Assembly (NCBI RefSeq): GCF_001854245.1
Contig: NZ_CP015381.1
Span: 2,825,001 to 2,889,000, forward strand
Origin: Desulfococcus multivorans
GTDB taxonomy: Bacteria > Desulfobacterota > Desulfobacteria > Desulfobacterales > Desulfococcaceae
Direction of reading: 5' to 3'
Length of the DNA: 64,000 nucleotides
Every line of letters starts with the position of its first letter. Position 1 is the first letter of the stretch. Positions 19,785 through 21,000 of the stretch are shown here, in pieces. Made by a program: the position numbers and the translations under genes. The notes under the pieces were generated by a model. That model was not told the origin of the DNA. It searched no databases and saw nothing but the letters and a program-made list of their open reading frames with translations.

Positions 19785-20843
19785 CTATCTGAAAACGATG
19801 GACGCACCGCCGGGATCGAGAACCCGACCGATGATTCCGGCATGGGTAATGCCCGCCTGATGAAGCCGCTCGATCAGCGCATCAGCCTGCGACGCCGTTA
19901 CGGCGACAAGAAGCCCGCCGCTGGTCTGAGGATCGAAGAGGATCTCTTCCTCCCATCGCCTGAGCCGCCCTGGAAACCGAACCCGTTTTTCGGTCAATCG
20001 GCGGTTGTCCGCGTTCATGCCGGTGGTCACTCCTTCCCTGTAGGCATCCAGCGCCTCATCCATGAACGGGATTTTTTCGAATTCGATCTCCAGCGTTGCA
20101 TTCGATCCCCGGGCCATTTCCAATCCATGACCGGCCAGCCCGAATCCGGTGACATCCGTCGCGCCGTGAACGTCAAAATCAGCCATGATTTCGGCTGCTT
20201 TTCGATTCAGGGTCGTCAACACACGGATACAGCGTTCCATCGCGCCCCGGGAAACCCGCTTTTTCAGGTTGGCATTGAACAGAACCCCGCTACCGACAGG
20301 TTTGGTCAAAATCAGCCGATCACCCGGCCGTGCGCCGGAGTTGCGCCACACCCGTTCAGGATGAACAAGTCCCGTCACGGAAAGCCCGAACTTGGGCTCC
20401 GCATCCTCGGTGGTATGCCCCCCCAGCAACACGGCGCCGGCCTCGGTAATCTTGCTCACGGCCCCGGTGATGATGCCCAGAAGCACATCAGGCCCCAGCT
20501 TCTCTCCCGGAAAACCAACAAGACTCAGGCAGGCAATGGGGCGGCCGCCCATGGCATAGATGTCGCTGATGGCGTTGGCTGCGGCGATCTGGCCGAAAAG
20601 ATACGGATCGTCCACCGGCGGGGTAATGAAATCCGCCGTAACGACAAGGGCCTCCTGGTCGTTCAGCCGGTAGACGCCGGCATCGTCTGACGTATCGAAC
20701 CCCACGATGATGTTGGGATCATCGCTTTTCGGCAGGGCCGCCAATAAAGCCTCCAGCCCGACCGGGCTGAGCTTCGCCGCTCACCCGCAGGTTTTGGCAA
20801 GGCGGGTGAGCGTTGGCCTGTGCAGCAAATCAGAAATCTTCAT
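19785..20843 (-). CDS. selD: Selenide, water dikinase containing selenocysteine
   Basis: 352 residues if the in-frame TGA at 20783-20781 (codon 21) is read as selenocysteine. The N-terminus then reads T-C-G-U-A-A-K-L-S-P, matching the catalytic Cys/Sec segment of selenophosphate synthetases (G-C-G-C-K in the E. coli enzyme). Downstream are the ATP/metal motifs G-F-D-T-S-D-D-A, T-A-D-F-I-T-P, A-N-A-I-S-D-I-Y-A-M-G-G and G-G-H-T. The enzyme makes selenophosphate from selenide and ATP for Sec-tRNA synthesis. A conventional caller starts at 20744 and loses the active site. An AGGTTGTC sequence precedes the ATG at 20843 as a modest ribosome site. A SECIS-like hairpin follows the TGA at the correct distance. 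Confidence 0.92.
20747..20774 (-). promoter_or_regulatory. Bacterial SECIS-like hairpin in selD
   Basis: On the minus strand the sequence after the TGA folds into an upper stem CAGCCC/GGGCTG closed by the tetraloop GGTC, with a lower AAGC/GCTT pairing around it. The upper stem begins 11 bases after the TGA, the spacing described for the minimal SECIS element of E. coli formate dehydrogenase, and the loop contains the GU expected for SelB binding. Confidence 0.8.
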
Positions 20844-21000
20844 GACAACCTCGACGACGCTGATGGTATATGGACGCATTCGGAGAAAATTTCGGACATA
20901 TTATGAAAAATCATGAAAAAAGCAAACATTTCATCCTTTTTTTCAGTATTCCGGGGGACGGGCATCGCGGGTTCCGGTCTCTCTGTATGGGAGATAGCGC

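Follow-up and report, generated by a model that had tools for sequence, protein, structure and literature searches.

Where does selD begin on the minus strand of this DNA, and how is the TGA codon within its frame decoded? The stretch that we analysed (64,000 nt, hereafter the window) corresponds to C1:2825001-2889000 of the Desulfococcus multivorans genome, which is a single contig (C1) of 4,455,399 bp.

Reading frame of selD and its in-frame TGA

From a likely ATG start, the selD frame passes through the TGA and stays open to a TAG stop at 19787-19785 (Table 1). The minus strand from 20843 to 19785 spells MKISDLLHRPTLTRLAKTCG-TGA-AAKLSPVGLEALL..., and its translation is MKISDLLHRPTLTRLAKTCG-U-AAKLSPVGLEALLAAL.... 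The extended protein scored 377.8 bits against the NCBIfam model selD (TIGR00476, curated cut-off 125) and is homologous to the SelD structures 3u0o and 2yye; selenophosphate synthesis is its predicted activity. When the extended N-terminus was aligned to 3u0o, which we take to be E. coli SelD (catalytic residues C17 and K20), the TGA fell on the first Cys of GCGCK, that is, on the catalytic residue, and the Lys three residues on was matched as well (U-A-A-K). A sequence-only reading of the window had placed an in-frame TGA at the catalytic position (T-C-G-U-A-A-K, 20783-20781), and both the assignment and the coordinates were right.

Table 1. Features of the selD locus (window positions) and of two related loci elsewhere in the genome (C1 positions)
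Feature	Position	Strand	Basis or remark
selD, including in-frame TGA and final stop	19785..20843	-	predicted 352-aa selenoprotein SelD; family score and structure homology
Likely ribosome-binding site GAGG	20849-20852	-	5 nt upstream of ATG 20843
Likely start codon ATG	20841..20843	-	from sequence; in orthologues a start lies some 18-22 codons ahead of the Sec codon
TGA, predicted selenocysteine codon (residue 21, catalytic position)	20781..20783	-	alignment; TGA in 30/30 orthologues
Putative SECIS hairpin (stem of 7 bp; apical loop GGUC, 20760-20763)	20753..20770	-	synonymous conservation, covariation, covariance model, fold
TTG chosen by automatic calling	20742..20744	-	13th codon after the TGA; not a conserved start
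Second SelD	C1:392674-393675 (L002 1483-2535)	+	in-frame TGA at the catalytic codon, GAG-U-ASK
selC* opal tRNACys and selB*	C1:1714445-1716502 (L015, L051)	-	tRNA directly upstream of the second SelB

The putative SECIS hairpin

A hairpin with a GGTC loop had been claimed to begin 11 bases past the TGA, and this spacing was borne out for a stem of 6-7 bp. A 6-bp core begins 11 nt after the TGA and the GGUC loop 17 nt after it; the arms of the full stem pair nt 14-20 with nt 25-31, counted from the T of the TGA (window positions 20770-20764 and 20759-20753). Folded alone, the 20-nt hairpin reached -11.6 kcal/mol (z -3.1), and in a context of 49 nt the fold was unremarkable (z -0.78). With a loop of 4 nt (GGUC), 7 bp, a spacing of 17 nt and -11.1 kcal/mol, the site lies within the published constraints for bacterial SECIS elements (PMC13188914; energy threshold below -7.5). 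Since 110 of the 2218 TGA triplets in the window (about 5%) pass the same constraints, energy and shape alone are not diagnostic, and the single-sequence evidence is weak. An Rfam search of the 64,000-nt window at gathering thresholds gave no match.

The comparison of orthologues was decisive, and it places the predicted hairpin beyond chance. We used a set of 30 sequences including the window SelD, the remaining members being 60-70% identical. Codons +5 to +8 after the TGA, which itself is found in every member of the set, keep AGC or GAC, CCG, GTC and GGG. Synonymous conservation at these codons, measured against a codon-usage simulation, gave z values of 12.7, 10.4, 16.5 and 17.4, the strongest such stretch in selD. 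Compensatory stem changes appeared once clade members of other phyla were added (AGCCC/GGGCT, AGTCC/GGACT and AATCC/GGATT). The pair that closes the loop varies between G-C, A-U and U-A around an invariant GU, with none of 500 shuffles as high, and together they correspond to the published N1-G[G|U]-N2 pattern. Where Asp or Glu replaces Ser at +5, the next Leu is encoded by CTC and pairing is restored, usually with one bulged base; CTC occurred in 12 of the 13 sequences with Asp or Glu versus 0 of the 17 others (Fisher 1.5e-7, with the sequences treated as independent despite their relatedness). A covariance model from which the family of the source genome had been left out gave 42.9 bits at the window site, while the runner-up in the whole genome reached 16.5 bits.

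Decoding of the UGA codon

The genome carries SelA, a canonical SelB and a tRNASec with a UCA anticodon; thus selB and selC, whose absence had been named as counting against a selenoprotein SelD, were both found, as was selA. Given the catalytic-site alignment, the conserved and covarying hairpin and this machinery, the window gene very probably encodes a selenocysteine-containing SelD with its own SECIS element. The genome paper names selA, selB and selD together with five selenoproteins, and SelD is not among the five (PMC5109826).

In the mechanism that we propose, canonical SelB carrying Sec-tRNASec would bind the hairpin that closely follows the UGA within the reading frame, with the invariant GU of the apical loop as the likely contact, and selenocysteine would be inserted at the catalytic residue 21. 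The full-length SelD would then convert selenide and ATP to selenophosphate, which SelA would use for the synthesis of Sec-tRNASec. Because Sec-tRNASec would depend on selenophosphate in this way, each SelD molecule would need earlier SelD activity.

In D. multivorans, this earlier activity could come from either of two Sec-SelD genes. The second SelD is 47% identical to the window SelD, and the genes around it form what looks to us like a selenium cluster. No Cys-SelD was found in the genome: the two further matches of the SelD search are ThiL and HypE, which leaves no Cys-SelD to prime the pathway. Thus, the claimed need of the gene for its own product applies to the two predicted Sec-SelD genes together, but not strictly to the window gene alone. 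A selenouridine trait as the reason for a second SelD was rejected, since the search for selenouridine synthase (SelU/YbbB) gave nothing above the cut-off in this genome.

The genome also encodes a second potential reader of UGA. At C1:1716415-1716502, a divergent tRNA has a UCA anticodon, A1:U72 and U73 followed by CCA, and scores 45.6 bits against Rfam tRNA-Sec (cut-off 47); the second SelB beside it scores 274 bits. By these features, the two match the selC* tRNACys and SelB* of Desulfobacterales, which are proposed to deliver Cys at UGA according to the summary of Mukai et al. (2017) in PMC7609411. In the order, a UCA tRNA was present in the fetched flank of 20 of the 23 selB* loci.

Residue 21 could be Cys in part. 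If selC* and SelB* read the UGA, they would yield a Cys-SelD, at least under selenium starvation, and SelD is functional with Cys in many bacteria (PMC4561486). We nevertheless regard this reading as improbable, even though both components occur in the source genome. A SelD of the window clade and selB* occurred together in only 2 of 242 genomes, where 3.6 were expected (Fisher p 0.55), and no link between them was found. In addition, the same TGA and SECIS are retained in genomes without selB*, where their reader must be canonical SelB. Owing to these two observations, canonical selenocysteine insertion accounts for the TGA far better than Cys insertion. It is likewise doubtful, with only a small chance in its favour, that in genomes with both systems selC*/SelB* puts Cys at some SelD UGAs. 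Were this true, a Cys-SelD could restart selenophosphate synthesis on the return of selenium, which would solve the self-dependence of SelD.

Among the neighbours of selB* that we looked at, no obvious UGA-containing genes were found. The selB* gene often lies near or before genes for a 2-hydroxyacyl-CoA dehydratase-type protein and a BadF/HgdC-type ATPase (L195-L199, L208), which may be functionally linked to SelB*. In one genome, selC*-selB* is present as two tandem copies, with a TAG inside the frame of the second (L054, G214:C40). The second cysteinyl-tRNA synthetase of D. multivorans is fused in frame to a cysteine-synthase-like domain (L209 2155-4443; C1:1621157-1623443, minus strand).

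Translation from the TTG at 20744 would give a SelD-like protein with a shortened N-terminus that lacks the catalytic loop, and we consider this extremely unlikely. The mechanical ORF caller does begin there, as the sequence-only reading had stated, because a GGAGG lies 5 nt upstream. However, the orthologues conserve neither the TTG nor the GGAGG; in them the matching codon is TTG in 9 of 30 and CTG in 12 of 30, whereas the peptide N-terminal to the Sec codon is kept at the protein level. Moreover, selection on a SECIS element makes sense only with ribosomes that cross the UGA. The annotation is to be corrected, as the call from 20744 loses the N-terminus and with it the catalytic residue. 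A sequencing error, or a mutation that turned a Cys codon into TGA and selD into a pseudogene, has practically no probability as the origin of the TGA: beyond the single base that separates TGA from TGC or TGT nothing speaks for either, while the same TGA occurs in independent genomes of several phyla, the remainder of selD is intact with a full family score, and the orthologues already contradict both.

The SelD clade and known systems

Genes for a predicted selenocysteine-containing SelD of the window type are not confined to D. multivorans. Relatives with at least 60% identity were found in 38 of the 242 sampled Desulfobacterales genomes, 37 at full length and one partial. The window-type SelD is the only SelD found in 24 of these 38 genomes. 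Among the 27 with a completeness of 90% or more, this applies to 15, where self-dependence would therefore be literal. Further relatives came from assemblies of Poribacteria, SAR324, KSB1, Calditrichota and Gemmatimonadota, nearly all of them metagenome bins, so that single placements may stem from wrong binning. A maximum-likelihood tree separated all 33 clade members from 25 other SelDs by a branch with 100/100 support; SelDs of 49-53% identity were left out, hence the tree sets no lower boundary to the clade. The second SelD of the genome falls among the 25 others, so the pair did not arise by a recent duplication. Clade members are of the Sec type in every case in which the N-terminus was read. 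Taken together, the sequences place the window SelD in a distinct and well-supported clade of predicted Sec-SelDs that spans several phyla; its covarying SECIS is unusually clean.

The gene neighbourhood of the clade is not conserved, and an fhs neighbour was seen again in just one relative, a member of the same family. In a few relatives (L085, L086, L089, L093), the surroundings of SelD include a DoxX/MauE-like membrane protein, a rhodanese with the motif CGFxKCTRSH and a C_GCAxxG_C_C-type protein, possibly a set for selenium or sulfur handling. The same CGFxKCTRSH rhodanese recurs near selB* in L196, L199 and L201.

Sec-SelD, its SECIS and its self-dependence have long been known, deltaproteobacteria included (PMC1794560, PMC4561486). 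The sequence-only reading had called the arrangement established in some other lineages; it is indeed a known one, but the word "other" did not hold, since nearly all listed SelD genes of Desulfobacterales carry TGA, and many deltaproteobacteria have SelD among their listed selenoproteins (PMC1794560). The window SelD resembles the Sec-SelD/SPS2 of deltaproteobacteria, Clostridia and Pasteurellales (PMC1794560, PMC4561486) in its family, the catalytic Sec position, the in-frame bacterial SECIS and the predicted self-dependence. Unlike the clostridial SelDs and the other SelD of its genome, it belongs to a separate clade and has a PVG/GGUC-type SECIS.

The selC*/SelB* opal system, as summarised in PMC7609411, is present in D. 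multivorans and expected to read UGA. It differs in its proposed insertion of Cys; it does not co-occur with the window-type SelD, and no cysS* lies directly beside the D. multivorans selB*.

A limited literature search did not turn up any bacterial genome reported to have two Sec-SelDs, which is not proof of novelty. In Photobacterium profundum, two selD genes, one Sec and one Cys, were reported in 2005 (PMC1273633). D. multivorans likewise has two SelD genes of different origin, but in contrast to that Sec and Cys pair both carry TGA and a Cys-SelD is absent. Two predicted Sec-SelDs thus coexist in one genome with two elongation factors expected to read UGA, which makes it possible to test how SelD restarts after selenium starvation and what SelB* decodes. 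Compared with the known systems, the unusual points are the two Sec-SelD genes in a single genome and, alongside them, a separate system by which this stop codon may also be read.
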